A stretch of DNA of 64,000 nucleotides, from the NCBI RefSeq assembly GCF_011764445.1, contig NZ_BLPG01000001.1, positions 8,237,316-8,301,315 on the forward strand, given 5' to 3'. The notes under the pieces are model-generated. The model saw only the letters and a program-made list of their open reading frames with translations, ran no database searches and was not told where the DNA came from. The first letter of the stretch is position 1. Each line of letters opens with the position of its first letter. Shown piece by piece: positions 9,795 through 61,054 of this stretch. The position numbers were made by a program, and so were the translations under genes. The DNA is from Phytohabitans rumicis (GTDB lineage: Bacteria; Actinomycetota; Actinomycetes; Mycobacteriales; Micromonosporaceae).

Positions 9795-9895
9795 CGTCGA
9801 TCAAGGACTTTGCCGTCGATCAAGGGCAAACGGTCGTGCTTCGATCTCCAAACCACGGCCGTATGCCCTTGATCGACGGCGAAGTCCTTGATCGC
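9795..9895. repeat. Family A palindromic element, copy 1
   Basis: Nested inverted repeat: outer arms CGTCGATCAAGG.../...CCTTGATCG and inner arms GATCAAGGGCAAACGGTCGTG-like and CACGGCCGTATGCCCTTGATC-like, each read in the opposite sense. The central stretch reads TTCGATCTCCAAA (reverse orientation). It lies in a GC-rich noncoding tract (9655-10435) between the sulfotransferase gene and the end of the binding-protein gene; the tract also has degenerate direct repeats such as CTCGCACGGCGGCC at 9714-9742. Confidence 0.85.
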
Positions 9896-10008
9896 GGCGT
9901 GCGGGCCGAGGGCGGGGCGCGGTGGGCGAGTGGCGCGGGTCCGCGCGGCGGCGGCTCGCGGCGTGGATCACGTGCCGTGGCCCGTGCGGCCCGGGCCCTT
10001 GCGGCGTG

Positions 10009-10111
10009 CGTCGATCAAGGATTTCCGCGTCGATCAAGGGCGGATGGTCGTGGTTTGGAGATCGAAGCACGGCCGTATGCCCTTGATCGGCGGCGTGGTC
10101 CTTGATCGACG
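10009..10111. repeat. Family A palindromic element, copy 2
   Basis: Full 103-bp form with both outer arms (CGTCGATCAAGG at the left, CCTTGATCGACG at the right). The centre reads TTTGGAGATCGAAG (forward). Left inner box GGGCGGATGGTCGTG and right inner box (inverse) GGGCATACGGCCGTG differ, so the inner stem is not perfectly paired. The DNA before copies 2 and 3 is similar (GCGGCGTGCGTCGATC), so these two may be a local duplication. Confidence 0.88.
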
Positions 10112-10228
10112 CGGCGTGCGGGCCGAGGGCCGGCGCGCGGTGGGCGACTGGCGTGGGTCCGCGCGGCGGCGGCCCGCGTGCCGTGGCCCGCGTGCCGTGG
10201 CCCGCGCGGCGCGGGCCTTCGCGGCGTG

Positions 10229-10331
10229 CGTCGATCAAGGATTTCCGCGTCGATCAAGGGCATACGGCCGTGGTTTGGAGATCGAAGCACGACCATTCGC
10301 CCTTGATCGACGGCGAAGTCCTTGATCGACG
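10229..10331. repeat. Family A palindromic element, copy 3
   Basis: Full 103-bp form, forward centre TTTGGAGATCGAAG. Its left half is nearly the same as copy 2, while its right inner box (CACGACCATTCGCCC) is different from copy 2. This shows that left and right arms of different copies do not vary together. Confidence 0.88.
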
Positions 10332-10435
10332 CACGCCAGCGGGAGGCGCGAAGCGCGCGGCGGAGGCGGGAGGCGCGGGGCGGGAGGCGGGAGGCGGGAG
10401 GGTGGGCGTGAGGATTGTGTGGGGTGGTGGTGGGG

Positions 10436-11376
10436 TTACGGGCGGTAGCGGGACGGAGGGGAGGAGGGGCGGGGCCTAGGGTGGGGGCTAGCCAGCGGGT
10501 GTACAGGGCGGTCCAGGTGCCGTTGGCGCGCAGGTCGTCGAGGACGCCGTTGACGAAGCGGACGAAGTCGGGCGCCGTGCGGGAGAACGCCAACCCGTGC
10601 GGCTCGTCGGTGAAGCGCGGCCCGACGATCCTGGTGGTCGGGTCCTGGGCGGCCAGGCCGGCGAGCACGTTGTCGGTGGTGGAGATGGCGTCCACCTGGC
10701 CCTGCTGGAGCAGCACCAGGCAGTCGGTCCAGTCGACGGCGGAGATGGCGACCGGCTTCGACGGCGCGTCGATGACGGCCTGGATCGAGGTGGTGTTCGC
10801 GGCCGAGCAGACGCGCTTGCCGCCCAGGTCGTCGATGCCCTTGACGGTGGAGCCTTCCGGCACCAGTACGCGCTGGCCGGAGTCCAGGTAGTTGGTGGAG
10901 AACTCGACCAGCTCGCGGCGCGCGCAGGTGATCGTCATCGAGTTGGCGACCAGGTCGACCTGGCCGTTGACCGCGGTGAGCCGTTCCGCCTGGGTGACCA
11001 CCCGGTACTGCACCTTCTCGGCGTCGCCGAAGATGGCCTTGGCGATCTCGCGTACCAGGTCGATGTCGAAGCCGGCCAGCTTGCCGGTGAACGGGTCGCG
11101 GAAGCCGAACAGGTAGTTGTTCTGGTCGACGCCGGCGATCAGCCGGCCGCGCGCCCGGATCTTCTCCACAGTGGAGCCATCGGTGCCGTCCGGGCGCAGG
11201 CTGGCCCGCGGATCGCAGGCCGGCTCGGGCGGCACGGCGCTCGGCGCGACCGCCGGGTCGCGGACGCCCAGCGGCACCGGCGGCTGTGCTGAGGAATCCA
11301 CAGGGGACACCGGGCGGCCGGGGGAGCAGGCGCCGAGGAGAAGCGCGACGGCCGCGACCCACAGCACTCGGAACAT
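10436..11376 (-). CDS. Extracytoplasmic amino-acid binding lipoprotein (GlnH/GluB type), frameshifted near its end
   Basis: Lipoprotein (LLLGACS lipobox at about 11-17) with a full periplasmic-binding-protein fold of the glutamate/glutamine class (RLIAGVDQNNYLFGFRDP, GFDIDLVREIAKAIFG, ANSMTITCARRELVEFS). It is the third gene after a response regulator and histidine kinase, so it may feed a ligand signal to that kinase; no permease genes are adjacent. As written, the frame runs on to 10015 through palindromic repeats. One extra base in the G run 10458-10461 gives the usual GlnH ending (LGPAPPP...RYRP) at 10436 and 313 aa, which I prefer. Confidence 0.82.
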
Positions 11377-11385
11377 CGCCCCAGG

Positions 11386-12528
11386 CTAGATCGACGGCGC
11401 AAATCGGGGGAGGGTGACCCGCACCGCCAGGCCGCCGCCGTCCCGGGGTTCGGCGGTCACCTCGCCGCCGTGCGCCCGGGCGACCGCGCGGACGATGGAC
11501 AGGCCCAGGCCGGCGCCGCGGTCGTGGCTGACCCGCTCGGTGCCGTACCGGCGGAAGGGCTCGAAGAGGCCGGGTACCTCGTACCGGGGGACGACCGGGC
11601 CGGTGTTGGTGACGGTGAGCTCGACGAGGCCGTTCGGCAGCGCGCGGCAGGCCACCCGGACCCAGCCGTCGGGCTTGGTGTTGTGCCGGATGCCGTTCTC
11701 CACCAGGTTCTGCACGAGCCGTTCCAGCAGCACCGCGTCGCCGAGCGTGACCGCCTCCGCGGTCTCGGCACCGACGGTGATGCCGTCCGGCTCGGCCTGG
11801 GAGACCGTGTGCTCGACGATGTCGGCCAGGTCGACCGGTGCCTGGTCGACCAGCTCGTTTTCCGAGCGGGCCAGCAGGAGCAGCCCGTTGATGAGCCGCT
11901 CGTGCCGGGCGTTGATGTCCAGCAGCATGTCGGTGAGCTGCCGGACCTCGGGCGTGGTGGCGGTGCGGTGGGCGGCGTATTCGAGCACCGCCCGGCCCAG
12001 GGTCAGCGGGGTGCGCAGTTCGTGCGAGGCGTTCGCGACGAAGCGCCGCTGGCCGTCGAAGGAGCGGTCGAGGCGTTCGATCATCGCGTCGAACATGTCG
12101 GCCAGCTCCTTGACCTCGTCGCGCGGGCCGGGGAGCGCGATCCGCTCGTGCAGGCCGCGGTCGGCGGCGGGCGCGGCGGCGATCCGCCGGGCGGTGTCGG
12201 TGATGCGGTGCAGCGGGTGCAGCGCCCGCCCGGCGAGCAGCCAGCTGAAGGCGACGCCGACGGCGGTGACCACGATGAGTGCGATGCCGCCCTGGGTGAG
12301 CAGGTCGTGCAGCGCGGTCTCGCGTAGCTTGTCCGGCAGGTCGGCGGCGGAGTAGTACGCGTCGAGCGGGTCGGTGCCGTCGATCGGGCCGGTCTTGGTG
12401 GCCAGGATCTTCACCCCGCTGCGCCGCCCGACCAGGACGTACGTCAGAGCCAGCAGCACGGTGCCGGCGGCGAGCAGGAGCGCGCCGTACAGGACGGTGA
12501 GGCGGGTGCGTAGCGTCAAACGGCTCAT
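11386..12528 (-). CDS. Two-component sensor histidine kinase
   Basis: 380 aa. Two membrane helices (about 10-32 and 80-100) flank a short 45-residue external loop. A HAMP linker, the phospho-accepting box NASHELRTPLTL (His near 169) and the ATPase boxes (NLVENGIRHN, DRGAGLGLSIV) follow, all complete. Its ATG overlaps the stop of the response regulator by four bases (ATGA), so the two are translationally coupled. The small external loop suggests that the downstream binding lipoprotein might do the sensing. Confidence 0.92.
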   Translation of the reverse strand: MSRLTLRTRLTVLYGALLLAAGTVLLALTYVLVGRRSGVKILATKTGPIDGTDPLDAYYSAADLPDKLRETALHDLLTQGGIALIVVTAVGVAFSWLLAGRALHPLHRITDTARRIAAAPAADRGLHERIALPGPRDEVKELADMFDAMIERLDRSFDGQRRFVANASHELRTPLTLGRAVLEYAAHRTATTPEVRQLTDMLLDINARHERLINGLLLLARSENELVDQAPVDLADIVEHTVSQAEPDGITVGAETAEAVTLGDAVLLERLVQNLVENGIRHNTKPDGWVRVACRALPNGLVELTVTNTGPVVPRYEVPGLFEPFRRYGTERVSHDRGAGLGLSIVRAVARAHGGEVTAEPRDGGGLAVRVTLPRFAPSI

Positions 12529-13181
12529 TGGATCCGATATCCTTCACCCGGGATCGTTTCGACAACCGCGGGGTCGCCGAGCTTGCGGCGCAGCTTGAGG
12601 ATCGTCACCCGGACCGCGGCGGTGAACGGGTCGGCGTGCTCGTCCCACACCTTCTCCAGCAGCTGCTCGGCGCTCACCACCGCCCCCTCGGCACGCATCA
12701 GCTCCGCCAGCATCGCGAACTCCTTGCGGGACAGCGGGACGTACCGGCCGTGCCGGTACACCTCCCGGCGGGGCAGGTCGAGCGTGATACCGGCCCGGGT
12801 CAGCACCGGCGGCGCCGCCGGGCGCGAGCGCCGGCCCAGCGCCAGCACGCGGGCCGCCAGTTCCGGAAACGCGAACGGCTTGGGCAGGTAGTCGTCGGCG
12901 CCGAGGGACAGGCCGGCGACCCGGTCGCCCACCTCGGCGGCCGCGGTCAGCATCAGCACCCGGGTGTCCGCCCGGGAGTCGACCACCGCCCGGCACACGT
13001 CGTCGCCGTGCACGATGGGCAGGTCCCGGTCGAGCACGACCACGTCGTAGTCGTTCACGGCCAGCCGTTCCAGCGCGGCGTCGCCGTCGTACACGATGTC
13101 CACGGCGTGGGCCTCGCCCCGCAGCCACCGCGCGATCACGTCGGCGAGCAGCCGCTCGTCCTCCACCACCAGTACGCGCAT
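12525..13181 (-). CDS. Two-component response regulator, OmpR family
   Basis: 218 aa from ATG 13181; the frame is open further upstream but this start gives the canonical MRVLVVEDE beginning. The receiver domain has the acidic pair ED at 8-9, phospho-acceptor Asp in VVVLDRDLP (near 51) and Lys in YLPKPF. The C-terminal winged helix (RREVYRHGRYVPLSRKEF, VTILKLRRKLG, IPGEGYRIQ) binds DNA. First gene of a leftward operon RR-HK-binding lipoprotein, facing away from the export operon at 13303. The dyad at 13217-13247 is a likely target. Confidence 0.93.
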   Translation of the reverse strand: MRVLVVEDERLLADVIARWLRGEAHAVDIVYDGDAALERLAVNDYDVVVLDRDLPIVHGDDVCRAVVDSRADTRVLMLTAAAEVGDRVAGLSLGADDYLPKPFAFPELAARVLALGRRSRPAAPPVLTRAGITLDLPRREVYRHGRYVPLSRKEFAMLAELMRAEGAVVSAEQLLEKVWDEHADPFTAAVRVTILKLRRKLGDPAVVETIPGEGYRIQ

Positions 13182-13216
13182 GAGATCAATAATTACCCAC
13201 CGTGATGTTCTCTCCG

Positions 13217-13247
13217 CGTTAAGGCCGGCGGAAACCGCCCGGTAACG
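13217..13247. promoter_or_regulatory. Imperfect dyad in divergent promoter region
   Basis: CGTTA at 13217-13221 and TAACG at 13243-13247 enclose GGCGG and CCGCC, giving a dyad between the divergent response-regulator operon and the MacB-type export operon. The 121-base gap holds the promoters of both. A shared operator for the two-component system is a reasonable guess, which would make the exporter its target. Confidence 0.4.
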
Positions 13248-13302
13248 CCCCGCCGCGTGTACTGCCTCCCGACACCGACATCGGTTGTGGAGGAGAAACG
13301 AC

Positions 13303-13845
13303 GTGTTGAGACGACGCATTGCTTGGACGATCGCCGCGCTGGCGCTCGCCCTGGGACCCGCGGCCTGCGGGGGCGAGGACGGCGGCGACGGCATCGCCAC
13401 CGCCGGCGGTGCCAGCGGCGGCCCGAGCGCCAGCGCCAGCGCCGCGGCCGGGAACGCGGACGAGCAGAACCTGAAGTTCGTGGAGTGCATGCGGGGCGAG
13501 GGCATCGAGATGGAGGACCCGGAGCCCGGCGGCGGCACCCAGATCCGGATCCGCGGCGGCGACCCGGCGAAGGCGGACGCCGCGATGCAGAAGTGCCGCC
13601 AGTATCTGCCCAACGGCGGCGAGCAGACCCGGATGAGCCCCGAGGACATCGAAAAGGCCCGCCAGTACTCCAAGTGCATGCGCGACAACGGCGTGCCGGC
13701 GTTCCCCGACCCCGACCCGGAGACCGGCGGCATCATGCTGCGGGCCGGGCCGGACAGCGGCCTCGACCCGAACTCGGCGGAGTTCGCCGCGGCCCAGAAG
13801 AAGTGCGAGCAGCTGCGCCCGCGCCGGCCCGGGAGTGGCGGATGA
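13303..13845 (+). CDS. Small lipoprotein of export operon
   Basis: 180 aa from GTG 13303, placed 8 bases after GGAGGAG. Signal peptide with lipobox GPAACGG. Behind a Ser/Ala/Gly-rich tether lie two similar units with Cys-Met pairs ([16 protein letters not shown] and [16 protein letters not shown]) and further Cys residues (QKCRQY, KKCEQL), which suggests two disulfide-linked repeats. The family is common in actinobacteria next to MacB-type exporters but has no known role. Its stop overlaps the ATG of the adaptor gene. Confidence 0.75.
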
Positions 13846-14915
13846 GCCGGCGACGGCGGCGGGCCCCGGTGGCGCTGGCGGCCGGCGTCGCGGTGGTCGC
13901 GGTCGGCGGCGCGGCGGCGGCCACCGGATTCGGCGGCGGCGACGCGGGTACGGCGGGGAGCAGCGCGCTGCCACCCGCCACCTCCACGGTGCAGAAGTCC
14001 ACATTGGTGGATGCCGATACCGTGGACGGCACCCTCGGCTACGGCACCGAGACGGCGGTGACCGGCCGGCTCGGCGGCACGGTGACCTGGCTGCCCGAGG
14101 AGGGTGCCACCGTACGGCCGGGCCAGAAGCTGTACACGGTGGACGACAAGCCGGTCCTGCTGATGCGCGGCACCCTGCCCATGTACCGCAACCTGGCGCC
14201 GGGCGTCGAGGGCACGGACGTCAAGCAGTTCGAGCAGAACCTGTCCGCCCTCGGGTACGACGGGTTCACCGTGGACGACGAGTACACCGACTCGACCGCC
14301 GCGGCGGTCGAGGAGTGGCAGGAGGATCTAGGCCTGCCGGAGACCGGCGTGGTGGAGCCCGGCCGGATCGTGTACGCGCCAGGGACCGTGCGGGTGTACG
14401 ACGTCCAAGCGCAGGTCGGCGCCGGCGCGGGCCCCGGCCAGCAGGTGCTCGCGCTGACCGGCACCACCCGGGTGGTCACCGTCGAGCTGGACATCGACCA
14501 GCAACGCCTCGCGGCCAAGGGCAGCGCGGTGTCGGTGGAGCTGCCGGACGGCAAGACGGTGCCGGGCAAGGTGTCCGATGTGGACACCATCATCGACCTC
14601 GGGTCGGGTGGCGCGGGCAACGACGAGCCGGAGACCAAGCTGGAGGTCACCGTCGCGCTGACCGACCAGAAGAGCCTCGGCACGCTCGACCGGGCCACAG
14701 TGGACGTCACGTTCACCGCCGAGAAGCGCGAGGGAGTGCTCAGCGTGCCGGTGTCGGCCCTGCTCGCGCTGGCCGAGGGCGGGTACGGCGTCCAGGTGGT
14801 CGAGGGCACGGGCACCCGCATCGTGCCGGTCGAGGTGGGCATGTTCTCGGGCGGCCGGGTGGAGGTGCGCGGCGAGGGCCTGGCCGAGGGCATGACCGTG
14901 GGCACCGCCTCATGA
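13842..14915 (+). CDS. Membrane-fusion (HlyD-like) adaptor with peptidoglycan-binding domain
   Basis: 357 aa. One N-terminal membrane helix (about 8-30), then a lipoyl/barrel half-motif ([30 protein letters not shown]), an inserted peptidoglycan-binding type 1 domain (about 118-175: [35 protein letters not shown]) and a C-terminal beta-barrel. Such adaptors bridge MacB-type permeases to the cell wall in Gram-positive bacteria. ATG overlaps the previous stop and the next ATG overlaps its own stop, so the operon is tightly coupled. Confidence 0.85.
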
Positions 14916-16773: not shown

Positions 16774-16780
16774 AAAGCCG

Positions 16781-20013: not shown

Positions 20014-20023
20014 GGGCGCGGGC

Positions 20024-22098: not shown

Positions 22099-22108
22099 CT
22101 TCTTTGGA

Positions 22109-22162
22109 GTGATCAAGGCGTCCTTCAAGTCGTTGGGACAACTTGAAGGACGCCTTGATCAC
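22109..22162. terminator. Perfect 22-bp hairpin between convergent genes
   Basis: The arm starting GTGATCAAGGCGTCCTTCAA at 22109-22130 is repeated exactly in inverse at 22141-22162, with a 10-base loop. It follows the dehydrogenase stop by 10 bases and covers the stop codon (TGA, 22159-22161) of the convergent methyltransferase. There is no T-tract, as usual for actinobacterial terminators. It contains GATCAAGG, the core of family A, but is otherwise different. Confidence 0.7.
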
Positions 22163-23049: not shown

Positions 23050-24201
23050 ATGCTGCGTCGTGCCGCCCTGGTCCTCGGCCTACTCCTCGCCGTCCTGCTG
23101 GTGCCATCGCCGGCCGTCGCGGCCACCGCCCTGACCGCCGCCAACTTCCGCCTGCAAGCCACCGCCTACTCAGGACTGATCGACGACCTGGACGCCGCGC
23201 TGCCGAACGTGAGCGTGCCGGGCGTCGTGGCCGACGGCAACCGCGTCGCCACCTCGTGCTCGCCCGGCGCGTCCAACCGGCTCGCCTCGTTCTGCTGGAA
23301 CAGCGGCGACAACGGCGTGACGTACTGGATCCCGCAGGGCATCACGACGACCGCGGACGCGTACGACGCCGGCACGTACGAGGGTGCCACCGCGATCCTG
23401 GTGAGCTGGTACGACGACGGCACCGACGGGGTCGACCGCGGCGTGCGGGTCTCCTTTGTGGACTACTCCACGCCGTCCGCGCCCACGTACCGGCACGTGC
23501 TGCTGGTCGAGCCGTACACCCGCACCGACGGGCGGGCCTCGTTCCGGGCCGTCAACGTCCACGCCGGCGGCATGTTCTGGTACGGCCACTACCTGTACGT
23601 CGCGTCCACCAGCCTCGGGTTCCGGGTCTTCGACATGCGGCACATCTGGCAGGCCGGCACCACGAACGATGCGCTCATCGGCTGGCAGTCGGACGGCACC
23701 TACCAGGCGTACGGCTACAAGTACGTGCTGCCGCAGGTCTTCACGTACGCCCGCTCCACCGCCGGCGGGTACGCCAACCTCACGTTCTCGTTCGCCTCGC
23801 TCGACCGCACCAGCACGCCGGACAGCGTCATCGTCGGCGAGTACGCCTACCCCGGCACCGGTACCCGGCTGGTGCGATTCCCCATCGACTACACGACCCG
23901 GATGCTGACCGAGTCCACCGACGGCTACGCGCACGCCACCCAGGCGTACGACGTGTCGGTCACCAGCATGCAGGGCGCCACCGCCATCAACGGCACGTAC
24001 TATCTGTCCACAAGCGATGGTGACGCCAACAAGGGCGACCTGGCCACGTTCACGCCCGGCGGGTCCGTGGTCATGCACACCGACAACCTGCCGATCGGGC
24101 CGGAGGACGTGTCGTACTGGCGGGACAAGGACCAGCTGTGGTCGCTGACTGAGTACGCAGGCAGCCGTTCGGTCTTCGCGGTGCGCGCGTCCGCGTACTA
24201 G
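23050..24201 (+). CDS. Secreted protein of unknown function
   Basis: 383 aa. Sec signal peptide (MLRRAALVLGLLLAVLLVPSPAVAA). The mature part is rich in Tyr, Thr and Ser and has repeated beta patterns (HVLLVEPY, HYLYVASTSLGFRVFDMRHIWQ, TYYLSTSDGD, VSYWRDKDQLWSLTEY), which suggests a beta-propeller. I do not recognise a catalytic motif. GGAGGT lies six bases before ATG. An upstream GAAGG-AAA-CCTTC dyad at 23021-23033 could be regulatory. Its TAG stop is formed by the target TA plus the first G of the hairpin element at 24201. Confidence 0.75.
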   Translation: MLRRAALVLGLLLAVLLVPSPAVAATALTAANFRLQATAYSGLIDDLDAALPNVSVPGVVADGNRVATSCSPGASNRLASFCWNSGDNGVTYWIPQGITTTADAYDAGTYEGATAILVSWYDDGTDGVDRGVRVSFVDYSTPSAPTYRHVLLVEPYTRTDGRASFRAVNVHAGGMFWYGHYLYVASTSLGFRVFDMRHIWQAGTTNDALIGWQSDGTYQAYGYKYVLPQVFTYARSTAGGYANLTFSFASLDRTSTPDSVIVGEYAYPGTGTRLVRFPIDYTTRMLTESTDGYAHATQAYDVSVTSMQGATAINGTYYLSTSDGDANKGDLATFTPGGSVVMHTDNLPIGPEDVSYWRDKDQLWSLTEYAGSRSVFAVRASAY

Positions 24202-24364
24202 GGGCGTGTCTGATGGATCTTGTGGGTGCGAGGCGAGGTCCAGGCGGCGTCCGGTGGTGCCGGGCGGAAGGTCGCATACCGGTGTTGTATGCGGCCTTTC
24301 GACCGGTGCCGCTGGTCGTCGTCTGGGCCCGCCGCAGCCCCACAGAGATCCATCAGACACGCCC
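24201..24364. mobile_element. MITE-like hairpin element with 26-bp terminal inverted repeats and TA target duplication
   Basis: The left end GGGGCGTGTCTGATGGATCT and right end (inverse) GGGCGTGTCTGATGGATCTC continue for about 26 bp with one indel. TA flanks both sides (24199-24200 and 24365-24366), as expected for IS630/mariner-like insertion. The inside also pairs (GGAAGGTCGCATAC with GTATGCGGCCTTTC), so the whole 164 bases can fold into one hairpin. It encodes no transposase. It lies between two convergent genes and ends inside both stop codons. Confidence 0.75.
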
Positions 24365-25005
24365 TAACGCTTGGGGGCCCAGCGGCCGACGACGGCCGCG
24401 ACCACCGACACCAGATAGAGCTGTCCGACGACGGCCTCGGTGACCACGACCGCGCGGGCCACCCCGGAGACCGGCACGATGTCGCCGAACCCGGTCGTCG
24501 TCAGGGTGATGACGCTGAAGTAGAGGAACGCGGAGGCGTCGGCCGGGTCGGTCACCCCGTCCAGATACGGGTTGCCCAGCGTGGCGGCCAGGAACTGGTG
24601 CAGGCTGGAGTAGAGCAGCGCCAGCAGCAGGTACGTCGCGAGCGCACCGTTCACGGTGTACACGTCGACCCGCCGGCGCTGCCAGAGCGCCTGGAGGATC
24701 GCCGCGATCGTCGCGGCCACCAGCGCGGTCAGCGCCGCGTTGGTCAGCGCGATGCTCACCCGCTCGTTGCCCAGCAGGATGGCGACCACGCTGACCGCGA
24801 AGGCGGCGACCGCGCCGGCGATCGAGGCCCGCACCCAGCGGTGCCGGGGGCCGGCGAGTCCGGTCGCCGCCACCAGCAAGCCGCCGAGGAGCAGCGCGCG
24901 GACCGGACCCACCACGCTGCGCTCGCCGGCCGCGATGATCAAGACATATAGGACGACGATCGCCACCAGCATGGCCCCAAAACGCGGCGTCCGGACCTCT
25001 TCCAC
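24364..25005 (-). CDS. Two-pore-domain-type potassium channel subunit (Ion_trans_2)
   Basis: 213 aa from GTG 25005; ATG 24972 would give 202 aa. Six hydrophobic segments; the last two (about 150-172 and 185-207) flank a pore loop with the selectivity filter TLTTTGFGDIVP, a TTGFGD variant of TVGYG. No regulatory RCK domain follows. It lies head to head with the ligase gene, 24 bases apart, so both promoters overlap. Its TAG stop is completed by the last base of the adjacent MITE. Confidence 0.85.
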   Translation of the reverse strand: MEEVRTPRFGAMLVAIVVLYVLIIAAGERSVVGPVRALLLGGLLVAATGLAGPRHRWVRASIAGAVAAFAVSVVAILLGNERVSIALTNAALTALVAATIAAILQALWQRRRVDVYTVNGALATYLLLALLYSSLHQFLAATLGNPYLDGVTDPADASAFLYFSVITLTTTGFGDIVPVSGVARAVVVTEAVVGQLYLVSVVAAVVGRWAPKR

Positions 25006-26300: not shown

Positions 26301-26390
26301 CGTCGATCAAGGACTTCTGCGTCGATCAAGGGCATATGGCCGTGGATTGGAGATCAAAGCACGACCGTTCGCCCTTGATCGACGGCAAAG
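26301..26390. repeat. Family A palindromic element, copy 4 (short form)
   Basis: Left outer and both inner arms are present (CGTCGATCAAGGACTTC; GATCAAGGGCATATGG; CCTTGATCGACGG), centre ATTGGAGATCAAAG forward. The right outer arm is lost just after CGGCAAAG and replaced by GGGG, the same break point as copies 5 and 8. Confidence 0.85.
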
Positions 26391-26458
26391 GGGGTCGCGC
26401 CCCCGGGGCGCGGCCAGCGCGCTCCGCGCGGGCAGTCGGCGCCGCGCGAAGGGGCGGG

Positions 26459-27271: not shown

Positions 27272-27396
27272 GACCGCTTACCTCCACGCTGAGGTCTGGC
27301 GAAGTACCCCCCGCCCACCCCAGCTAACCCCATGTGACGCCGTCACAACAGCCCGGATGCGAGATCGCGAGCTATCCCACACCAGACCTCAAGACC

Positions 27397-27480
27397 CGAT
27401 CAAGGACTTTCGCCGCGATCAAGGGCAAACGGTCGTGGATTGGAGATCAAAGCACGACCGTTCGCCCTTGATCGACGGAA
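27397..27480. repeat. Family A palindromic element, copy 5 (short form)
   Basis: Left outer arm begins GATCAAGGACTTTCG (its CGTC is changed to GACC), inner arms GGGCAAACGGTCGTG and CACGACCGTTCGCCC, centre ATTGGAGATCAAAG forward. It stops at CGACGGAAAG followed by AGGGG, so the right outer arm is missing. It lies in the 330-base gap before the M36 protease gene; nothing else but a promoter region is seen there. Confidence 0.85.
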
Positions 27481-27565
27481 AGAGGGGGGCGAGGCCGGTG
27501 GCATATCGGTTCGGCCATAGCACGGGGGAAAGGGTGGCGCGGAGCGACGACGAAGAGTATTTAAA

Positions 27566-36769: not shown

Positions 36770-36770
36770 A

Positions 36771-43512: not shown

Positions 43513-43526
43513 ACCGTTCCCGTCGC

Positions 43527-43620
43527 GCCGCTGGCGTCGGCGCCCCGCTGGCGTCCGCGCGCCGCTGGTGTCCGCGGGCCGCTGGTGTCCGCGGGCCGCT
43601 GGTGTCCGCGGGCCGCTGGC
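43527..43620. repeat. 17-bp tandem repeat array
   Basis: The unit GCCGCTGGTGTCCGCGG is repeated three times without change from 43561 to 43611, with diverged units on both sides (GCCGCTGGCGTCGGCGC before, GCCGCTGGCGGCGGCC after). It lies just before family A copy 6, in a 278-base gap without a gene. Confidence 0.85.
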
Positions 43621-43626
43621 GGCGGC

Positions 43627-43729
43627 CGTCGATCAAGGACTTCCCCGTCGATCAAGGGCGAACGGCCGTGGTTTGATCTCCGATCCACGACCATTTGCCC
43701 TTGATCGACGGGGAAGTCCTTGATCGACG
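43627..43729. repeat. Family A palindromic element, copy 6
   Basis: Full 103-bp form with both outer arms (CGTCGATCAAGGACTTCCC / GGGAAGTCCTTGATCGACG, perfectly paired here), centre GATCTCC, reverse orientation. After it the DNA is low-complexity GC (GGCGCGGGGAGCGCGC, twice). Confidence 0.88.
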
Positions 43730-49345: not shown

Positions 49346-49379
49346 CCTGCTCGCCTCGGCGCTTTTGCGCGGGGCTTTG

Positions 49380-49463
49380 CGTCGATCAAGGGCAAATGGT
49401 CGTGCTTTGATCTCCAATCCGCGGCCGTTTGCCCTTGATCGGCAGGGAATCCCTTGATCGACG
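49380..49463. repeat. Family A palindromic element, copy 7 (short form)
   Basis: This copy lacks the left outer arm: it begins CTTTGCGTCGATCAAGGG, so it is the mirror form of copies 4, 5 and 8. The right outer arm is altered (CAGGGAATCCCTTGATCGACG), centre GATCTCC reverse. First element of the 49.4-50.3 kb palindrome island. Confidence 0.85.
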
Positions 49464-49611
49464 TGCCTCGGCGGCGGGGTGGCCCCGGTCGGGCCTTGCC
49501 GCGTGAGGGGGCGCCCGCAAGGCCGGGTAGTCAAGAGGTCGCCGAAGGTGTCAAGGGTCGCTCCCTTGGGTTTGACCGCTCGTCATGGCCGGCCGATCTC
49601 GGGTCCGCGTG

Positions 49612-49657
49612 AACGTGAAGGATGTGGGTCGTTGGGGCGACTCGGATCCTTCACGTT
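49612..49657. repeat. Family D hairpin, copy 1
   Basis: AACGTGAAGGAT at 49612-49623 pairs with ATCCTTCACGTT at 49646-49657, and GGGTCG with CGACTC inside. A related copy is at 60688-60733. Confidence 0.75.
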
Positions 49658-49692
49658 GATGCCGATCCCTTGCCGGCGTTGGGGCCGCCGAA

Positions 49693-49754
49693 TCGATCTA
49701 GGAACTATCGTGGGTATAAATCGGACTCGATACCCACGATTCTTCCTAGATCGA
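49693..49754. repeat. Family E hairpin, 25-bp arms
   Basis: TCGATCTAGGAACTATCGTG... at 49693-49717 pairs with the inverse at 49730-49754, two mismatches, 12-base loop. AT-rich for this DNA. It runs into the family B copy that begins CCTAGATCGACG, and a remnant of the same junction (CTCGATCCCTAGATCGACG) is seen at 26184-26202, so E and B may be parts of one larger element. Confidence 0.75.
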
Positions 49755-49830
49755 CGCCGACCTGCGGTGATCATGGGCTTAGCGGCGGGGAACGGGGCTC
49801 TTCGTGCCGCTAGGCCCATGGTCACCGCCT
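49745..49830. repeat. Family B palindromic element, copy 2
   Basis: GCGGTGATCATGGGCTTAGC at 49764-49783 pairs with GCTAGGCCCATGGTCACCGC at 49809-49828. It matches the 26190-26276 copy over its full length with changes mainly in the loop. Confidence 0.82.
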
Positions 49831-49927
49831 TGGGTAGCCGTCCGCGTGATCGGGGCGAGGCGCGGCTACTGGCGCTGTCTGCGCCTGACGGGGGCCGGTT
49901 CTCTTAACTACCCGGCCTTGAGGGGCG

Positions 49928-50021
49928 CCCCTGTGGGGCGATCCTGGGTGAGTAGGGCTCCCCTATGCAGCACAGGGCGGGTATAGGGGAGCCCTACTCA
50001 CGTCGGATCGCCCCACAGGGG
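49928..50021. repeat. Family C long hairpin, copy 1
   Basis: Two nested perfect stems: CCCCTGTGGGGCGATCC (49928-49944) with 50005-50021, and GTGAGTAGGGCTCCCCTAT (49948-49966) with 49983-50001; 36 paired bases, 16-base loop. The inner motif recurs at 60799-60852. The two stems are joined by three-base bulges of unlike sequence. Confidence 0.85.
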
Positions 50022-50116
50022 ACCCCTTTTGGGGCGCGGGAGCGCGGGGCACCGTCCGCGCGGGGTCGCGTCCGCGGCTCCCGTGGAGCGCGGCTCGCGC
50101 CCACCCCGCACCGCGC

Positions 50117-50200
50117 GCCGATCAAGGAAATCCGCGTCGATCAAGGGCAAACGGCCGTGGATTGGAGATCAAAGCACGACCATTTGCCCTTGATCGACGC
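50117..50200. repeat. Family A palindromic element, copy 8 (short form)
   Basis: Left outer arm CCGATCAAGGAAATCC, inner arms GGGCAAACGGCCGTG and CACGACCATTTGCCC, centre ATTGGAGATCAAAG forward. The right outer arm is missing, with the break at CGACGCAGAAG. The broken end seeds the tandem repeats that follow. Confidence 0.85.
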
Positions 50201-51069
50201 AGAAGAGGGGCAGAAGCGACGCAGAAGAGGGGCAGAAGCGACGCAGAAGCGACGCAGAAGCGGGGCAGAGGGGTAGCGGCAGCGGCGCGAGGGAGCGGGC
50301 TAGGGGTGGGGTGGTGGTTGGCGGCTCGGGCGGCTCGGCCGGCGCGGTATTCGGCGACCATCAGGTCGGTCAGCTCCTGTTGGGAGGTTTCCGAGGTGGG
50401 CTTGTCGAACGTGATGGCGCCGTGTTGCAGGACGTTGACGCGGTCGCAGACCTGGAGGACCTGGGCGTAGTTGTGGGCGATGATGATGATCGACACCTCG
50501 CCGCGTGCTTTGAGGTCGGTGATCAGGTCGAGGATGAGCGAGCCCTCTTTGGCGCCCATGGCGGCGAGCGGCTCGTCCAGTAGCAGGATGCGGGCGTCGG
50601 AGTAGACGGAGCGGGCCACCGCGATCGCCTGGCGCTGGCCGCCGGAGAGCTTGGCCACCTCGACCGAGACGTCCGGGATGTCGACGCCCATGTCGTCCAG
50701 TTGCTGCTTGGCGAGCCGCCGCATGAGCCGGTTGTTGAGCAGGGGCCACCGTACGCGTTCCCGGTTGAGGAACATGTTGTGGTAGACGGACAGCTCGTTG
50801 ACCAGGGCGAGGTCCTGGTAGACGGTGTCGATGCCGACCGACCGGGCGTGCTCGACGCTGCGGAGCACGAGCTCTTCGCCGTTCACGAATATCTGGCCGC
50901 TGTCGGGGCGGTGGAAGCCGCAGAGGATCTTGATGAGGGTGGACTTTCCGGCGCCGTTGTCGCCGATGAGGCCGAGCACCTCGCCCTTGTCGAGGCGGAG
51001 GTTGACGTCCCGGAGGGCGGTGAGGGCGCCGAACCTCTTGGCGATGCCCTCGACTCGCAAGGCTTCCAC
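50122..51069 (-). CDS. Sugar ABC transporter ATP-binding protein, end probably frameshifted
   Basis: Start GTG 51069 after AGGAGG. A single ABC domain of the ribose/xylose class: GDNGAGKSTLI (Walker A), KLSGGQRQAIAVARSV, ARILLLDEPLAAMG (the usual ETA is LAA), IIIIAHNYAQ with His switch. This class is about 255 aa. As written the frame runs to 50122 and adds about 60 residues from tandem repeats and family A copy 8. One extra base in the G runs 50303-50311 would stop it at 50300 with 256 aa, the normal size; I prefer that end. Confidence 0.85.
   Translation of the reverse strand: MEALRVEGIAKRFGALTALRDVNLRLDKGEVLGLIGDNGAGKSTLIKILCGFHRPDSGQIFVNGEELVLRSVEHARSVGIDTVYQDLALVNELSVYHNMFLNRERVRWPLLNNRLMRRLAKQQLDDMGVDIPDVSVEVAKLSGGQRQAIAVARSVYSDARILLLDEPLAAMGAKEGSLILDLITDLKARGEVSIIIIAHNYAQVLQVCDRVNVLQHGAITFDKPTSETSQQELTDLMVAEYRAGRAARAANHHPTPSPLPRAAAATPLPRFCVASASLLPLFCVASAPLLRRSRANGRALISNPRPFALDRRGFP
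50196..50261. repeat. 22/11-bp tandem repeat grown from the end of family A copy 8
   Basis: Two 22-base units GACGCAGAAGAGGGGCAGAAGC... (50196-50217, 50218-50239) then two 11-base units GACGCAGAAGC (50240-50261). The first GACGCAGAAG is the truncated arm of copy 8 itself. As written, the reading frame of the ABC ATPase gene on the other strand passes through it. Confidence 0.8.
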
Positions 51070-51158
51070 TGTGCCTCCTGGCTCGCTCGGTCGCGCGGCG
51101 CTGAACGCGCCGCCTTCGCTCCTCGGTCCAGGCGCCGCCGCGCCAGCTTCCTCGCTCA

Positions 51159-52172: not shown

Positions 52173-52238
52173 CGAGCCCCTTAAAGTCTGGGCGCCGGGC
52201 GCCGCCAGCGGGAGCGGCGCCCGGCGGTGGGAAACGGC

Positions 52239-54535: not shown

Positions 54536-54791
54536 GAATCCCCTCCGCGTGCGTATTTCGTGCGCTATTGAGCTGGAAGATGACGCATTTGCTGAGAGCT
54601 GCCGGCGGCTCGTGGTGCGGGTGCCGAGGACACTAAGGCCCCCACGTCACAGTCGCGAAACGCGAGCGCCACGTCCGAGTAACGAAATTTCCAAGGGGCA
54701 TACGTATTCATCGGACTTTTGCGGGGTGGTGGAGGGGTCGTGTGACCACCGACACGAGCCCGGTGGCGGCCTTCGCGGGGATGATGGCGCC

Positions 54792-55277: not shown

Positions 55278-55282
55278 CGGAC

Positions 55283-56209: not shown

Positions 56210-56301
56210 TGGACTGACTCCTCAGCATCAGCGGGTACGGCATTGCGGAGGCCCGTTCGCTGCTGGCATAGTCGTCAGGAGCGCCGGGGTGGTGGTGAAG
56301 C

Positions 56302-57252
56302 TTGGATGGCCCCAATACGACCAGCGGCGCCGACCGGTTCACGCGAATTTCCCTCGTTTTCGTGCTCGCCATCGAGTTGCTGCTCGTGGCCGTGATCGTC
56401 GTGATCTTCGTTCCACAGTGGAGCGCCGCCGACCCGGATCCGCGCTACGTCGACGTCGCCGACATGCCGCGTGCCGCCGCCGAGCCGGGGGTCGGCGCGT
56501 ACACCTGGTCGTGCGGGCGCAACGAGGAAGGCCACCGCAACACCGCGAACGTCGTGGTCGCCCCCGGCATCACCGGCCCGCCGCACCACGTCCACGACTA
56601 CATCGGCAACGTCTCCACCGGCGTCGACTCCACCGACGAGAGCCTCGCCGCGGCCGGCACCACCTGCGCCAACGGCGACCGGTCGACGTACTACTGGCCG
56701 GTACTGCGCACCGGCGCCCGCGCCGGGCAGGCCACGCACGGCACCATCCAGGTCGCGACCGCCATCACCTTGACCGTGTACGGCAACCCGGCCGGCCCGG
56801 TGGTGGCGATGCCCCCGCTGTTGCGGGGCACCATGGGCGACGCCAACGCGGCCACCCAGGACAGTGGACTGGCCCGTCCGACGTGGACCTGCACGGGTGC
56901 GCCGGACCGGCGGGGTGAGCGCTACCCGCGCTGCGACCGCGGCGACCGGGTCGTGCGCGTCTTCGACTTCCCGAGCTGCTGGGACGGCCGGCGTACGGAC
57001 AGCCCGAACCACCGCGCCCACCTCGTCTTCCCGGTGGTCGGCGGCGCCTGCCCGGCCGGCACGTTCGCGGTGCCCCGGCTGCGGGTAACCCTGGAGTACG
57101 CCCGGCCGGACGGTGATCGGTTCGCCATCGACGCGTTTCCCAACCAGGGCAACAGCCCGCGGACCGACCACGCCTTCTTCGTGAACCTGATGCCCGTACC
57201 GCTGATGGCCAAGATCGTCCGGTGCCTCAACACCGGAGTCGCGTGCGGGTGA
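56302..57252 (+). CDS. DUF1996 domain membrane-anchored protein
   Basis: 316 aa from TTG 56302 (no upstream start is possible because of a stop). One N-terminal membrane helix (about 16-38) and an external domain with the DUF1996 pattern: GPPHHVHDYIGN near 95, STYYWPVL, FPSCWDGRRTDSPNHRAHLVFP and CPAGTFAVPRLRVTLEY. Relatives are common in fungi and actinobacteria. Function unknown, but the conserved His and Cys residues suggest a metal site. Start codon uncertain. Confidence 0.82.
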   Translation: MDGPNTTSGADRFTRISLVFVLAIELLLVAVIVVIFVPQWSAADPDPRYVDVADMPRAAAEPGVGAYTWSCGRNEEGHRNTANVVVAPGITGPPHHVHDYIGNVSTGVDSTDESLAAAGTTCANGDRSTYYWPVLRTGARAGQATHGTIQVATAITLTVYGNPAGPVVAMPPLLRGTMGDANAATQDSGLARPTWTCTGAPDRRGERYPRCDRGDRVVRVFDFPSCWDGRRTDSPNHRAHLVFPVVGGACPAGTFAVPRLRVTLEYARPDGDRFAIDAFPNQGNSPRTDHAFFVNLMPVPLMAKIVRCLNTGVACG

Positions 57253-57309
57253 ACCGATCACGGCGGTTGGCCGTAGTTCGGGTGACTCTCTGGATGAAAG
57301 GGTGGGCGG

Positions 57310-57858
57310 ATGGCGAGGCTACGGCCGCAACCACGTCGGACATCCAGCGACGAGGCGCTGGTCCGGTCGCTGTACGAGGAGCACGGCAAGGCGCTCCTCG
57401 CGTACGTCACCCGGATCACCGGTGATCGGGCGCTGGCGGAGGACGTGCTGCAGGAGACCCTCATCCGGGCCTGGCGGCACGCCGAGACGCTCACCGAGTC
57501 GGCCGGCTCGATCCGGGGCTGGCTCTTCACGGTGGCCCGCAACGTGATGACGGACAAGATGCGCGCGAAGGCGGTACGGCCGGCCGAGGTCGCGGAGTCG
57601 CCGGCCACCGTACCGGTGGAGCGGGACCACGCGGACCGGGTGGTCGACTCGATGGTCGCGCTGGAAGCCCTGGAGCACCTGTCGGAGGAGCACCGCAGCG
57701 TCCTGGTGGAGATCTACTTCCAGGGGCGCAGCGTGGCGGAGACGGCGGAGCACCTCGGCATCCCGGCGGGGACGGTCAAGTCGCGGTCCCACAACGCTCT
57801 GAAGAACCTGCGAGAACTGCTGGTCGGGCGGTCCACCGTCCTGAAAGGGGTGGCCTGA
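57310..57858 (+). CDS. ECF RNA polymerase sigma factor (SigL-like)
   Basis: 182 aa. Region 2 (LYEEHGKALLAYVTRITGDRALAEDVLQETLIRAWRH, IRGWLFTVARNVMTDKMR) and region 4 (LEHLSEEHRSVLVEIYFQGRSVAETAEHLGIPAGTVKSRSHNALKNLRELL) are intact. The stop overlaps the anti-sigma ATG (ATGA), so the pair is balanced by coupled translation. Related factors respond to envelope or oxidative stress. Confidence 0.93.
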   Translation: MARLRPQPRRTSSDEALVRSLYEEHGKALLAYVTRITGDRALAEDVLQETLIRAWRHAETLTESAGSIRGWLFTVARNVMTDKMRAKAVRPAEVAESPATVPVERDHADRVVDSMVALEALEHLSEEHRSVLVEIYFQGRSVAETAEHLGIPAGTVKSRSHNALKNLRELLVGRSTVLKGVA

Positions 57859-58648
57859 TGAGTGCCGAGTCGCACGACACGCAGCTCGGCGCGTACGTGC
57901 TGGGCACCCTGGACCCCGGCGAGCGGCGCGATATCGACGCCCACCTGGCCGGCTGCGCGACCTGCCGCGCCGACCTGGCGGCGCTGGAGGCGGTGAAAGA
58001 CGTGCTCGATGACATCCCGCCCGAGGCGCTGCTGCACGGGCCGCCGGACGCCGACCTGGTGCTCCAGCGGACGCTGCGCCAGGTACGGGTGGAAGCCGCC
58101 GCCGGCGCTGGCCGGCGCTGGGTGCCCGCGGTCGCCGCCGCGGCGGTCCTGCTGGCCGGGGCACTCGGCGCCGGGGTGGCGGTCGGCCGCGGCACCGCAC
58201 CGGGGACGGAGGCCCTGCCCACGCCGGCGCCCACCGTGACCGCGTCGGCCCCGTGCCCGGCACCCGGGTGGGCACCACGCTCGACGCCAGCACCAACGTG
58301 CGGATGACCGCCAAGGTGGTGCCGGCGGCCGGCTGGGTCCGGGTGAACGCCGCGGTCAACGGCATCCCCGCCGGGGAGAACTGCCGGCTCCTCGTGGTCA
58401 GCCGGGACGGCACCCGCGAGATCGCCGCCGGCTGGATCGTCTCCGAGAAGGGCGAGACGGACGGCACCACCCTGGACGGCAGCGCCGCGGTGGACCCCGC
58501 CGACGTGGTAGCCGTAGAGGTCCAAAACACGGAGGGTCGCACCTTCGTCACCCTCCCCTGTAACCCCGCACTCACGAATGTGGATGTCTGTGGCAAGTTG
58601 TCGCAGCGTGCGCGGGGTCGATCACGGAACGTGAGAGATTCTTATTGA
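57858..58648 (+). pseudogene. Membrane anti-sigma factor (RskA/ZAS type), frameshifted
   Basis: Zinc-finger motif Hx3Cx2C (DAHLAGCATCRADLAALEAV), then a membrane helix (about 92-112: VPAVAAAAVLLAGALGAGVAV) and an external beta domain in another frame (VRMTAKVVPAAGWVRVNAAVNG, CRLLVVSRDGTREIAAGWIVSEKG, VAVEVQNTEGRTFVTLPC). One extra C in the run 58249-58252 gives ASAPVPGTRVGTTLD and 263 aa in all, the normal form. It holds the sigma factor until an outside signal leads to its cleavage. Confidence 0.85.
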
Positions 58649-58721
58649 ATACTTTTCTCTCTGTAACGTTCCGCCGAACGTACGTGGCATCTAGCCGTTT
58701 GGCTAAGCAGGATGGGGAACT

Positions 58722-60466
58722 GTGTCTGGCCGTCATCGCATGCGTGAACGCTTCCCTGCGACGGGTGCCCTCGCTGCGGCGGTGGCACTCATCGTCGTCG
58801 TGGGCGGAGCGTGGTTCGGGTATCGGGAGCTAGCCGGGGACAAGTGCTCCGGACAGGTCAAGCTGTCTGTCGCCGCGGCTCCCGAGGTCGCCGCCGACGT
58901 CCGAGCCACCGCTGACCAGTGGGTCGCGGACGGCGCGGCCGTGGGTGGCGTCTGCGTGCAGGTCGACGTCGGCGAGACCAATCCGGTCGACCTCGCCGCC
59001 GCCCTCGCCGCGAAGCACGGCGTGGCCCTCGTCGGCGTGGGCGGCGCGAGCGGCAGCACCGCGATCCCGGACGTGTGGATCTCGGACTCCTCGATCTGGC
59101 TGCAACGGCTGGGTGCGGCGGCGCCCGGGTTCACGCCCACCGACGGCGGGTCGATCGCGCTCAGCCCGGTCGTGGTGGCCATGCCGGAGCCGATCGCGAA
59201 GAACTTCGGCTGGCCGGAGAAGAAGCCCGGCTGGGCCGACATGCTGCAGCAGATCACCACGGGCACCGACCTGCGCGCCGGCATCGTCGAGCCGACCCGC
59301 GACGCGGCCGGCATGTCCGGGCTGCTGTCGCTCGGCGCCGCCGCCAGCGCGGCCGGGGCCAACGCCCAGCAGGCGCAGACCGCCGCGCTCCGCGCGCTGG
59401 CCGTCGGCCGCTCGGCGGTACGCGACGACCTGACCGCCAAGTTCCCGCAGGCGGCCGACGCGGCGTCGATCGCCTCCGGGCTGAGCGTCGCCGCGCTGTC
59501 CGAGGAAGACGTCATCCGCTACAACGCCAAGAAGCCGCCGGTACCGCTGGCCGCGATCTACATCGACCCGGCGCCGGTGCCGCTGGACTACCCGTACGCG
59601 GTGATGCCCGGCACCGACCCGGACCGGACCGCGGCGGCCGAGGCGCTGCACCAGGCGCTGAACGGGGCCGGCTTCCGGGACCGCCTCGGCGCCCTGGGCC
59701 TGCGTGCCCCCGACGGCACCGGCGGGACGGGCTTCGCCGCACCCACGGGTGGGCCGGCGACGGCCGCGTCGTCCGGCGCGAAGGGCGCGGGGCGGCGGCC
59801 CCCGACCCGGCCGCGGTGGACAAGGCCCTGACGACCTGGGCCACGGTGACCGCACCGGCGCGGATGCTCGCCGTGTTCGACATCTCCGGCACGATGCGCG
59901 GGGAGGTGCCCACCGCGGGCGGGGCCAGCCGCATGGAGGTCACCAAGGAGGCGGCTCGGCGCGGGCTGGCGCTCTTCGGCGACGACTGGGCGGTGGGTGT
60001 GTGGGTCTTCTCCACCAACCTCGGCGGCGGCAAGGACTGGCGTGAGCTCGCGGCGATCGGGCCGCTGTCCAGCAACCGCCAGGATCTGATCGCCAAGATC
60101 GGGCAAATCCAGCCGAAGGAGAACGGCGACACCGGCCTGTACGACACGCTCGCCGCGGCGTACGAGACGGTGCAGGACGGCTGGCAGCCCGGCCGGGTCA
60201 ACTCGGTCCTGATCCTCACCGACGGCATCGGCAACGACGACCCCGAAGGTGGCCTGTCACTGCCGGCGCTGCTCAACAAGCTGGAAGACCTGAAGGACGA
60301 GAAGCGGCCCATCCAGGTGATCATCTTGGGGCTGGGCGACGCGGTCAACCGGAGCGCGCTCGACCAGATCACCAAGACCACGGGTGGCGGCGTCCTGGTC
60401 GCCGAGGACCCAGCCAAGATCGGCGAGGCGTTCCTGAAGGGCATCTCCCTCCGCCCCACCAAGTAA
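58722..60466 (+). pseudogene. Substrate-binding-like and von Willebrand factor A domain protein, frameshifted
   Basis: GTG 58722 after GGATGGGGA. One N-terminal helix (about 14-36) anchors a solute-binding-protein-like domain (about 45-345: SVAAAPEVAADVRATADQWVADG, LSPVVVAMPEPIA, YPYAVMPG). A VWA domain with MIDAS DISGTM (VFDISGTMRGEVP), ILTDGIGND and a later Thr lies in another frame. One extra G in the run 59789-59792 gives AKGAGAAAPDPAAVDKAL and 581 aa. This fusion is known in actinobacteria; its ligand is unknown. It may be under the sigma factor just upstream. Confidence 0.85.
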
Positions 60467-60539
60467 CCCTCGGCGCCCGCCCCGCTTCGTTGGGCGGGCG
60501 CCGCCCCGCTCGCGGCGCTTGCGCGCTCCCGCCGCCCTT

Positions 60540-60640
60540 CGTCGATCAAGGCCCTCGCCGTCGATCAAGGGCATACGGCCGTGCTTTGATCTCCAAACCG
60601 CGACCCTTTGCCCTTGATCGACGCGAAAGTCCTTGATCGG
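60540..60640. repeat. Family A palindromic element, copy 9
   Basis: Full form: CGTCGATCAAGGCCCTCGCC on the left, CGCGAAAGTCCTTGATCGG on the right, inner boxes GGGCATACGGCCGTG and CGCGACCCTTTGCCC, centre GATCTCC reverse. First element of the 60.5-61.1 kb island, a 610-base gap without a gene. Confidence 0.86.
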
Positions 60641-60687
60641 TGAGGTGCTGGGGGCGGACGGTCGGGCTGGACCCCGACTGCGGGACT

Positions 60688-60733
60688 TACGTGAAGGATT
60701 CGAGTCGCTCCAGCGACCCAGACCTTTCGCGTT
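60688..60733. repeat. Family D hairpin, copy 2
   Basis: ACGTGAAGGAT at 60689-60699 with GAGTCGCTCCAGCGACCC inside and CCTTTCGCGTTGATGC after. Less well paired than the copy at 49612 but in the same order relative to families A and C. Confidence 0.6.
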
Positions 60734-60798
60734 GATGCGGGGGCAGGTCGCGCCGACAAGCGGCCCGTCCGAAGGGGGCCTCGCTTGGGTGTTGTGGC

Positions 60799-60852
60799 GT
60801 GAGTGGGGCGCCCCTGTACCCGCTCCGGCGTGAACAGGGGTGCCCTACTCAC
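60799..60852. repeat. Family C hairpin, copy 2
   Basis: GTGAGTGGGGCGCCCCTGT at 60799-60817 against ACAGGGGTGCCCTACTCAC at 60834-60852 (two non-Watson-Crick positions). Only the inner stem of copy 1 is kept. Confidence 0.75.
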
Positions 60853-60959
60853 GCGTAGGCCCCCAACAGGGCAGCCCTACTGGGGCGTAGCGCGCGTCCA
60901 CCTGACGCCCGACGAGCCCGAACCATCGTGAGCCCGAGCCCGACGCGCCCGGCGCCTCG

Positions 60960-61054
60960 CCGATCAAGGGAAACCCCGTCGATCAAGGGCAAACGGCCGC
61001 GGATTGGAGATCAAACCGCAGCCGTTTGCCCTTGATCGACGCGAAAGTCCTTGG
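60960..61054. repeat. Family A palindromic element, copy 10
   Basis: Left outer arm CGATCAAGGGAAACCCC, inner boxes GGGCAAACGGCCGCG and CGCAGCCGTTTGCCC, centre ATTGGAGATCAAAC forward. The right outer arm ends AAGTCCTTGGACGGG, with GATC changed to GGAC. It ends 22 bases before the expansin stop codon. Confidence 0.85.

Follow-up and report, generated by a model that had tools for sequence, protein, structure and literature searches.

A high-copy intergenic hairpin with polarity toward genes and a C-rich lead-in in Phytohabitans rumicis

The window analyzed here, a stretch of 64,000 nucleotides from the actinobacterium Phytohabitans rumicis (contig NZ_BLPG01000001.1, positions 8,237,316 to 8,301,315 of the forward strand), contains ten copies of a palindrome, hereafter family A or simply A, which is dispersed over the whole genome. 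Its copies are enriched where genes converge, tend to turn the same side toward the adjacent gene, and carry on this side a C-rich track. Placement, polarity, and lead-in, together with the finding that sites without A hold other hairpins, point to a role exerted on the RNA that leaves the gene. In the reading we favor, with roughly even confidence, A is a family of dispersed hairpins at gene 3′ ends resembling repetitive extragenic palindromic (REP) elements, which stop outgoing transcription, probably via Rho acting on the C-rich track, protect the end of the RNA, and spread independently of a REP-associated Y1 transposase (RAYT).

The source genome was analyzed in a main sample of 864 kb, comprising the window and 40 further 20-kb stretches, of which 19 were picked on account of copies located by model search, and in a second, even sample of 20 stretches of 20 kb at equal spacing on the main contig (400 kb), so that 1.26 Mb was read in total. 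Genes in the 864 kb were predicted with a hexamer gene caller made for this analysis (784 genes, 84% coding). From the main sample, 102 cores with a 37-nt spacer were kept and seven candidates with different spacers excluded; the profile set consisted of 98 of these cores, after omission of two without readable center and two too close to the end of a stretch.

The core of A is a palindrome of 57 bp, GATCAAGGGC...GGAGATC...GCCCTTGATC. The consensus of the 98 copies in GGAGATC orientation is CG[TC]CGATCAAGGAcTTccgCGTCGATCAAGGGCAAAcGGtCGTGGATtGGAGATCAAAGCACGaCCgTttGCCCTTGATCGACG; a right outer arm, decayed and not always present, comes after it. When copies were turned into this orientation and outer arms scored with at most one mismatch, the left outer arm was near-obligatory (97/98) and the right one optional (49/98). 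Because of this imbalance, A is a hairpin whose left arm is repeated once more as a direct copy; the nested palindrome described in an earlier note on the window therefore stands for the left outer arm and fails, in half of the copies, for the right one. The left edge is sharp, sequence conservation ending ∼25 bases to the left of the core, and the right edge is variable. As the note had it, the center is asymmetric: it reads GGAGATC on one strand only, which defines the strand (+ or −) of a copy here, and among the window copies six are + and four −. The stem exceeds 20 bp, and copy 6 of the window, taken as RNA, has a predicted folding energy of −86.9 kcal/mol (z −15.9). Arms and center are strongly conserved in sequence, and those positions of the two arms that do vary do so independently of each other within the source genome. 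The lack of a T-tract, likewise noted before, was borne out: a run of at least four T within 30 nt past the inner hairpin was present in 0/98 copies on the GGAGATC strand and in 3/98 on the GATCTCC strand. With no T-run past the hairpin, a canonical intrinsic terminator was rejected; a consensus scan for such terminators between 43400 and 61200 returned 6 sites, compared with 5.3 by chance. Mismatches in GGAGATC orientation (G.T versus A.C) amounted to 72:145 in the source genome and 22:62 in the congener G001. The resulting hint that the GATCTCC strand acts as RNA was set aside, as the mismatches are confined to few positions and the predicted RNA stability of the strands showed no significant difference (p 0.12 and 0.47).

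Placement of A relative to genes was far from even. In the main sample, 38 copies lay in convergent gaps (18.3 expected from intergenic space), 36 in codirectional gaps (43.8 expected), and 11 in divergent gaps (22.9 expected). Fourteen of the 102 copies overlapped a called gene and three were classed as edge copies, so that the earlier description of all copies as lying outside genes holds for most of them; in the window, the copies reported at 10009, 10229, and 50117 are entered by the 3′ end of an open reading frame (ORF). Every one of the 14 overlaps involved the gene's 3′ side; 13 had GGAGATC on the strand opposite to the gene, and in 13 the stop codon of the ORF was, by position, the TGA within TTGATC of the element.

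The orientation of A follows the genes. Among copies at most 100 nt from an incoming stop codon, 44/52 read GATCTCC in the transcript, as opposed to 18/34 of those farther away. Orientation followed the nearer gene in 42/50 copies in convergent gaps, and hand counting in codirectional gaps found the right side turned toward the start in all seven copies nearer a start and toward the stop in 20/29 copies nearer a stop. Neighboring copies in the same gap were arranged −+ in 18 cases, ++ in four, −− in four, and +− in none. Of the 19 copies in the even sample, 13 turned their right side toward the nearest gene (p 0.17), and close pairs were −+ (four) or ++ (one). In G001, 16 of the 22 copies scored did so (30 were found; p 0.05), and none of eight neighbor pairs less than 1.5 kb apart was +−. 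The polarity is thus firm where the sample is large, and both small samples show a trend that agrees with it. Orientation by replication strand was not favored, because same-gap pairs are head-to-head and the oriented pattern occurs 279 and 276 times in the genome.

Between gene and hairpin lies a track of unusual composition. Right flanks of at least 20 nt could be scored for 82 of 100 copies, 57 facing 3′ ends and 25 facing starts. Read from the gene to the hairpin, the former had C 0.51, G 0.28, and A 0.065, and the latter C 0.49, G 0.24, and A 0.10; control 3′ flanks (n = 185) had C 0.336 and G 0.340. The even sample reproduced this composition (C 0.514, G 0.274), as did flanks facing 3′ ends in G001 (C 0.55, G 0.28). 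An excess of C over G of at least 15 per 80 nt marked 68% of right flanks, compared with 29% of left flanks and 1% of the 185 controls, and the mean predicted folding energy of the first 60 nt was −21.5 kcal/mol for right flanks, compared with −33.2 for left flanks and −33.7 for controls. Tandem repeats, most commonly with a period of 9–22, occurred in 52/98 right flanks (including the right outer arm if present), 26/98 left flanks, and 1/166 control gaps. A lead-in that is C-rich, G-poor, and weakly folding is a feature of Rho-dependent terminators with rut sites. Family A shares it, followed by a stable hairpin, and Rho-domain proteins were encoded in 4/4 genomes examined; it differs from such terminators in that 25 of its 82 scored flanks face gene starts. 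Rho would probably load on the C-rich track of A.

In the window, nine of the ten copies are at convergent junctions, if those overlapped by the 3′ part of an ORF are included, and one is in a divergent gap. Copies 1 (9795..9897, −), 6 (43627..43729, −; the best palindrome of the ten), and 9 (60540..60642, −) possess both outer arms and lie in convergent gaps. Both outer arms are also present in copies 2 (10009..10111, +) and 3 (10229..10331, +), the former overlapped by, and the latter contained within, the 3′ part of ORF 10015-11277 (−). The right outer arm is missing from copy 4 (26301..26403, +; convergent gap), copy 5 (27394..27496, +; the sole copy in a divergent gap), copy 7 (49361..49463, −; convergent gap, the missing arm being on the low-coordinate side), and copy 8 (50116..50218, +), which is overlapped by the 3′ end of ORF 50122-51060 (−). 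In copy 10 (60958..61060, +), which forms a head-to-head pair with copy 9, it is degenerate. The ten places given earlier were correct, with the starts 27397, 50117, and 60960 off by 1–3 bases; a copy is also present at 49380, except that this position is its inner arm, the outer arm on the low-coordinate side being absent. Tandem repeats, to which no strand is assigned, occupy the gene-facing side of copy 1 (14-bp units, 9686..9741), copy 6 (17-bp units, 43524..43625), and copy 8 (11-bp units, 50195..50282). The word CGTCGATCAAGG, with at most one mismatch, occurs 33 times in the window, compared with 0.45 expected, a number reached by 0/100 shuffles. The 3′ parts of ORFs 10015-11277 and 50122-51060 cross A copies and stop at a TGA within the element; their proteins may have repeat-encoded tails, and an error in gene calling is also possible.

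Other palindromes keep to one side of A. Words of five other palindrome families were found 37 times to the left of A and once to the right, and the even sample added one further such word, on the left. They occurred in 22/70 gaps with A versus 11/358 gaps without; one of the five, word D, had 23 hits versus 28 for the reversed control, its five sided hits all being on the left. Between the head-to-head copies 7 and 8, the region 49500-50030 is a mosaic of other palindromes, among them GATCATGGGC...GCCCATGGTC and GATCTAGG...CCTAGATC. Stems of at least 10 pairs were present in 16/36 convergent gaps devoid of A and in 9/51 stretches between a stop codon and A (coding background 0.03), which is why A seems to take the place of other hairpins. 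Several of the hairpins in A-free convergent gaps are repeated in their turn. T1 (GATCAAGGCGTCCTTCAAGTCG...) has four whole copies in 1.26 Mb, one of them at window positions 22111-22159 in a ∼60-bp gap between convergent genes; two occurrences of GATCAAGG that do not belong to family A are due to this copy. T2 (AAGGAAGGGCACCTTGTTATGCAAAAAGCGATAACAAGG...) has six, with the sequence AAGGAAGGGCACCTTGTTATGCAAAAAGCGATAACAAGGTGCCCTTCCTT, at L017:18428, L021:18326, L035:8552, L225:10057, L227:3971, and L231:6502; a search detected 40 copies in the source genome and 44 in a single genome from a different genus, the remaining 59 genomes searched having none. Separately, a ∼170-bp element at 24197-24373 with inverted ends GGGCGTGTCTGATGGATC...GATCCATCAGACACGCCC, 88–92% identical copies of which are present at several places in the congeners G003 and G004, looks like a miniature inverted-repeat transposable element (MITE).

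The genome contains about 510–600 copies of A per 10.7 Mb. The 19 copies of the even sample extrapolate to ∼510 per genome; genome-wide, the core with exact arms was found 527 times and the looser core GATCAAGG N28-50 CCTTGATC 595 times, and the exact 12-mer CGTCGATCAAGG had 693 + 640 occurrences (reversed control 0). The earlier estimate of more than a thousand copies was therefore about twofold too high, and its suspicion that the motif extends beyond the window proved right. Stretches of the even sample held 0–4 copies each. Two parts of contig C1 were copy-poor: ∼0.92–1.76 Mb, with no exact core among the matches listed, and 6.96–8.0 Mb, with one copy among the 150 best model matches; sampled at four points (L048, L222, L234, and L235), they yielded 0 copies at a GC content of 0.67–0.71. 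The exact core was counted 339 times in G001, and 1, 0, 0, and 0 times in four other congeners.

When the ends GATCAAGG/CCTTGATC and a GAGATC center were required, 22/354 genomes of the family matched. Relatives sharing ends and center were found in Micromonospora, Pseudonocardia, and one metagenome-assembled genome of the Micromonosporaceae; a scan of named genomes added, among the matches listed, Pseudonocardia and Micromonospora species as well as some single, unrelated-looking hits in other phyla. As the center was part of the query, its conservation in these scans was itself selected for. Without this requirement, 46/397 genomes of the order matched, with up to 41 matches per genome in a large genus, g4, where only a minority of end pairs have the center (e.g., 9/41 in G330); the reversed control gave 1 in two genomes and 0 otherwise, and several of the matches were single and coding- or chance-like.

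The sequence of the inner stem is lineage-specific, with pairing kept. Among 10 sequences from Pseudonocardia, nine stem pairs had changed on both sides (attained in 35/500 shuffles), and the covariation score was 0.326 versus 0.128 (reached by 0/500 shuffles). For eight sequences of genome G032, the values were seven pairs (14/500) and 0.281 versus 0.114 (0/500), the number of further pair types not being unusual (104/500). In these two sets of relatives, the stem is maintained by compensatory change. Stem pairs 16-42 and 17-41 were switched between the source genome and G001 in 24/24 G001 copies. Site by site, the two genomes were compared by querying 25 gene-end pieces against G001: 14 were usable, 10 had no match, and one (piece 15) was dropped for a weak, domain-like match. 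For 4/14 gene ends (three gaps), G001 carries A at the corresponding end, oriented alike, with different stem, flank, and interior, a result compatible with shared ancestry as well as with preferred targets. A gap that holds three A copies in the source genome, its neighbors being the same by eye, contains a single hairpin in G001, TGATCAGGGCGTCCC...GGGACGCCCTGATCA. For copies 4 and 5, the corresponding gaps of G002–G005 had no A core within the stretches examined. The gap corresponding to copy 4 is long in G004 and short in the other three congeners, and in G005 (L052, ∼1865-1935) it has a hairpin of its own, GTGATCGAAGCTCCC...GGGAGCTTCGATCAC, with GATC-tagged ends.

Compared with known systems, A is REP-like in the broad sense and fails the defining features of GTAG/CGTC REPs, MITEs, and intrinsic terminators. 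GTAG/CGTC REPs are short palindromes of high copy number, mainly in convergent and unidirectional gaps near 3′ ends, which supply stop codons and commonly form head-to-head dimers, the CGTC type lacking a dedicated transposase (Di Nocera 2013, PMC3733652). The terms “actino,” “micromonospora,” “salinispora,” and “frankia” do not occur in that text. With these REPs, A shares shortness, abundance (527–595 dispersed palindromes in the source genome, well above 100 and intergenic save for the 14/102 overlaps with 3′ parts of ORFs), location at 3′ ends, stop codons, and head-to-head pairs. Unlike them, it has a conserved center, polarity toward genes, and a C-rich lead-in, and no unpaired tag: its consensus edges are CG[TC]CGATC instead of an unpaired GTAG foot, its CGTC sits inside the paired arm, and its stem is far above their 8–13 bp (for the CGTC type, an 8–9-bp stem with a 4–5-nt loop). 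The REP-like character proposed earlier thus applies to dispersal, copy number, mostly convergent 3′-end placement, and head-to-head pairing, and not to the GTAG foot or a RAYT. The absence of a transposase partner was corroborated: PF01797 (Y1, RAYT-type) had no match in 10/11 genomes (G000, which is the source genome, to G005, G032, and three of Micromonospora type), that is, none in the source genome and none in 9/10 relatives, G013 alone having two fragments. A MITE was rejected for lack of target duplication, none being detected above ∼2 sd in 49 copies with two outer arms (lengths 3–9, edges shifted by up to 6, ∼1,180 settings). A known RNA family was rejected as well, Rfam 15 having no match to the window at the gathering score; its six matches to seven further loci were all tRNA, signal recognition particle (SRP) RNA, or c-di-AMP riboswitch. 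Among the matches listed from the open-licence literature, there was neither a sequence match to A nor a title describing it, in agreement with the earlier note, which knew of no described family. As a stable hairpin at gene 3′ ends, A agrees with a 3′-end or termination hairpin in the broad sense, where transcripts would end. A U-rich tract is missing from 353/535 structured 3′ ends of transcripts in Streptomyces clavuligerus (PMC8269248). Like these U-lacking, “I-shaped” or Rho-processed hairpins, A is stable, downstream of genes, and without a U-tract; they are mapped transcript ends, whereas A is one sequence-conserved family of hundreds of copies, known from sequence. New relative to the earlier note are the asymmetry, the polarity toward genes, the C-rich tandem-repeat track, the one-sided palindromes, the compensatory stems, and the repeated hairpins in A-free convergent gaps.

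If A acts at 3′ ends as we favor, RNA leaving a gene would expose the C-rich track first, where Rho could load; the hairpin would then fold, and polymerase would be stopped, or the 3′ end be trimmed back and protected. A head-to-head pair would act from both sides and leave a transcription-poor interior. The main difficulty for this role is posed by the copies facing gene starts (25/82 scored flanks), where a stop signal is of no obvious use; they would have to stop antisense or divergent transcription. Further points weigh against it: polarity is a trend in the small samples (13/19, p 0.17; 16/22, p 0.05), predicted RNA stability is not significantly different between the strands (p 0.12 and 0.47), and there is no covariation excess in 16 Micromonospora copies and no covariation within the source genome (10 window copies; the arms of 98 copies being independent). 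Moreover, 10/14 of its gene ends with A have none at the G001 orthologue, and four congeners are essentially without A, which therefore is not essential. In a related scheme, which we regard as rather unlikely, the copies of A would be a genome-wide set of portable, outward-facing transcription fences, each composed of a C-rich Rho-loading track and a GATC-tagged hairpin, that present the same face to any gene, start or stop. Pairs would enclose compartments with little transcription, where other repeats collect, and a trans-acting factor would recognize the GATCAAGG ends and the GGAGATC center; such a factor would explain why the stems have changed in concert across Micromonosporaceae and Pseudonocardia lineages.

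That A is a selfish, non-autonomous palindromic repeat, copied by some enzyme, with its placement reflecting tolerated insertion and its polarity and C-repeats by-products of insertion or decay, is a genuine possibility, albeit one we doubt. It would fit the patchy distribution (exact cores numbering 527 and 339 in two congeners and 0–1 in four), the stems switched in concert between the source genome and G001, the sharp left and variable right edge, and the mosaics with other repeats. Yet target duplication and a Y1 transposase are lacking, and a selfish repeat does not predict the same polarity toward starts and stops, the absence of tail-to-tail arrangement from all 26 same-gap pairs, or other hairpins in A-free convergent gaps. 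The strong sequence conservation of arms and center, whose variable arm positions are independent within the source genome, would suit a site at the DNA level for a protein reading the repeated GATCAAGG words and the center, in nucleoid organization, repair, or segregation. We consider this improbable, given the replacement of stems by compensatory change between lineages, the strong gene-end placement with its C-rich lead-in, and the uneven supply of such sites, with 0–4 copies per even sample and two stretches in which all four sampling points were empty. Abundance, intergenic palindromes, and head-to-head pairs might finally suggest that A is a REP/REPIN family of the classical type, mobilized by a RAYT. 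This idea is largely refuted by the near-complete absence of PF01797 (10/11 genomes without a match, two fragments only in G013), the missing GTAG foot, and the 57-bp core, and we give it hardly any credence. Copying of A would accordingly proceed, in the 3′-end reading we favor, by a RAYT-independent route.

Family A offers some 500–600 natural replicates of one hairpin with gene polarity and a Rho-type lead-in, which makes it possible to test how transcripts end without a U-tract in high-GC actinobacteria and whether transcription stop signals can spread as repeats. It also illustrates that, in such a genome, intergenic repeats can build ordered mosaics.

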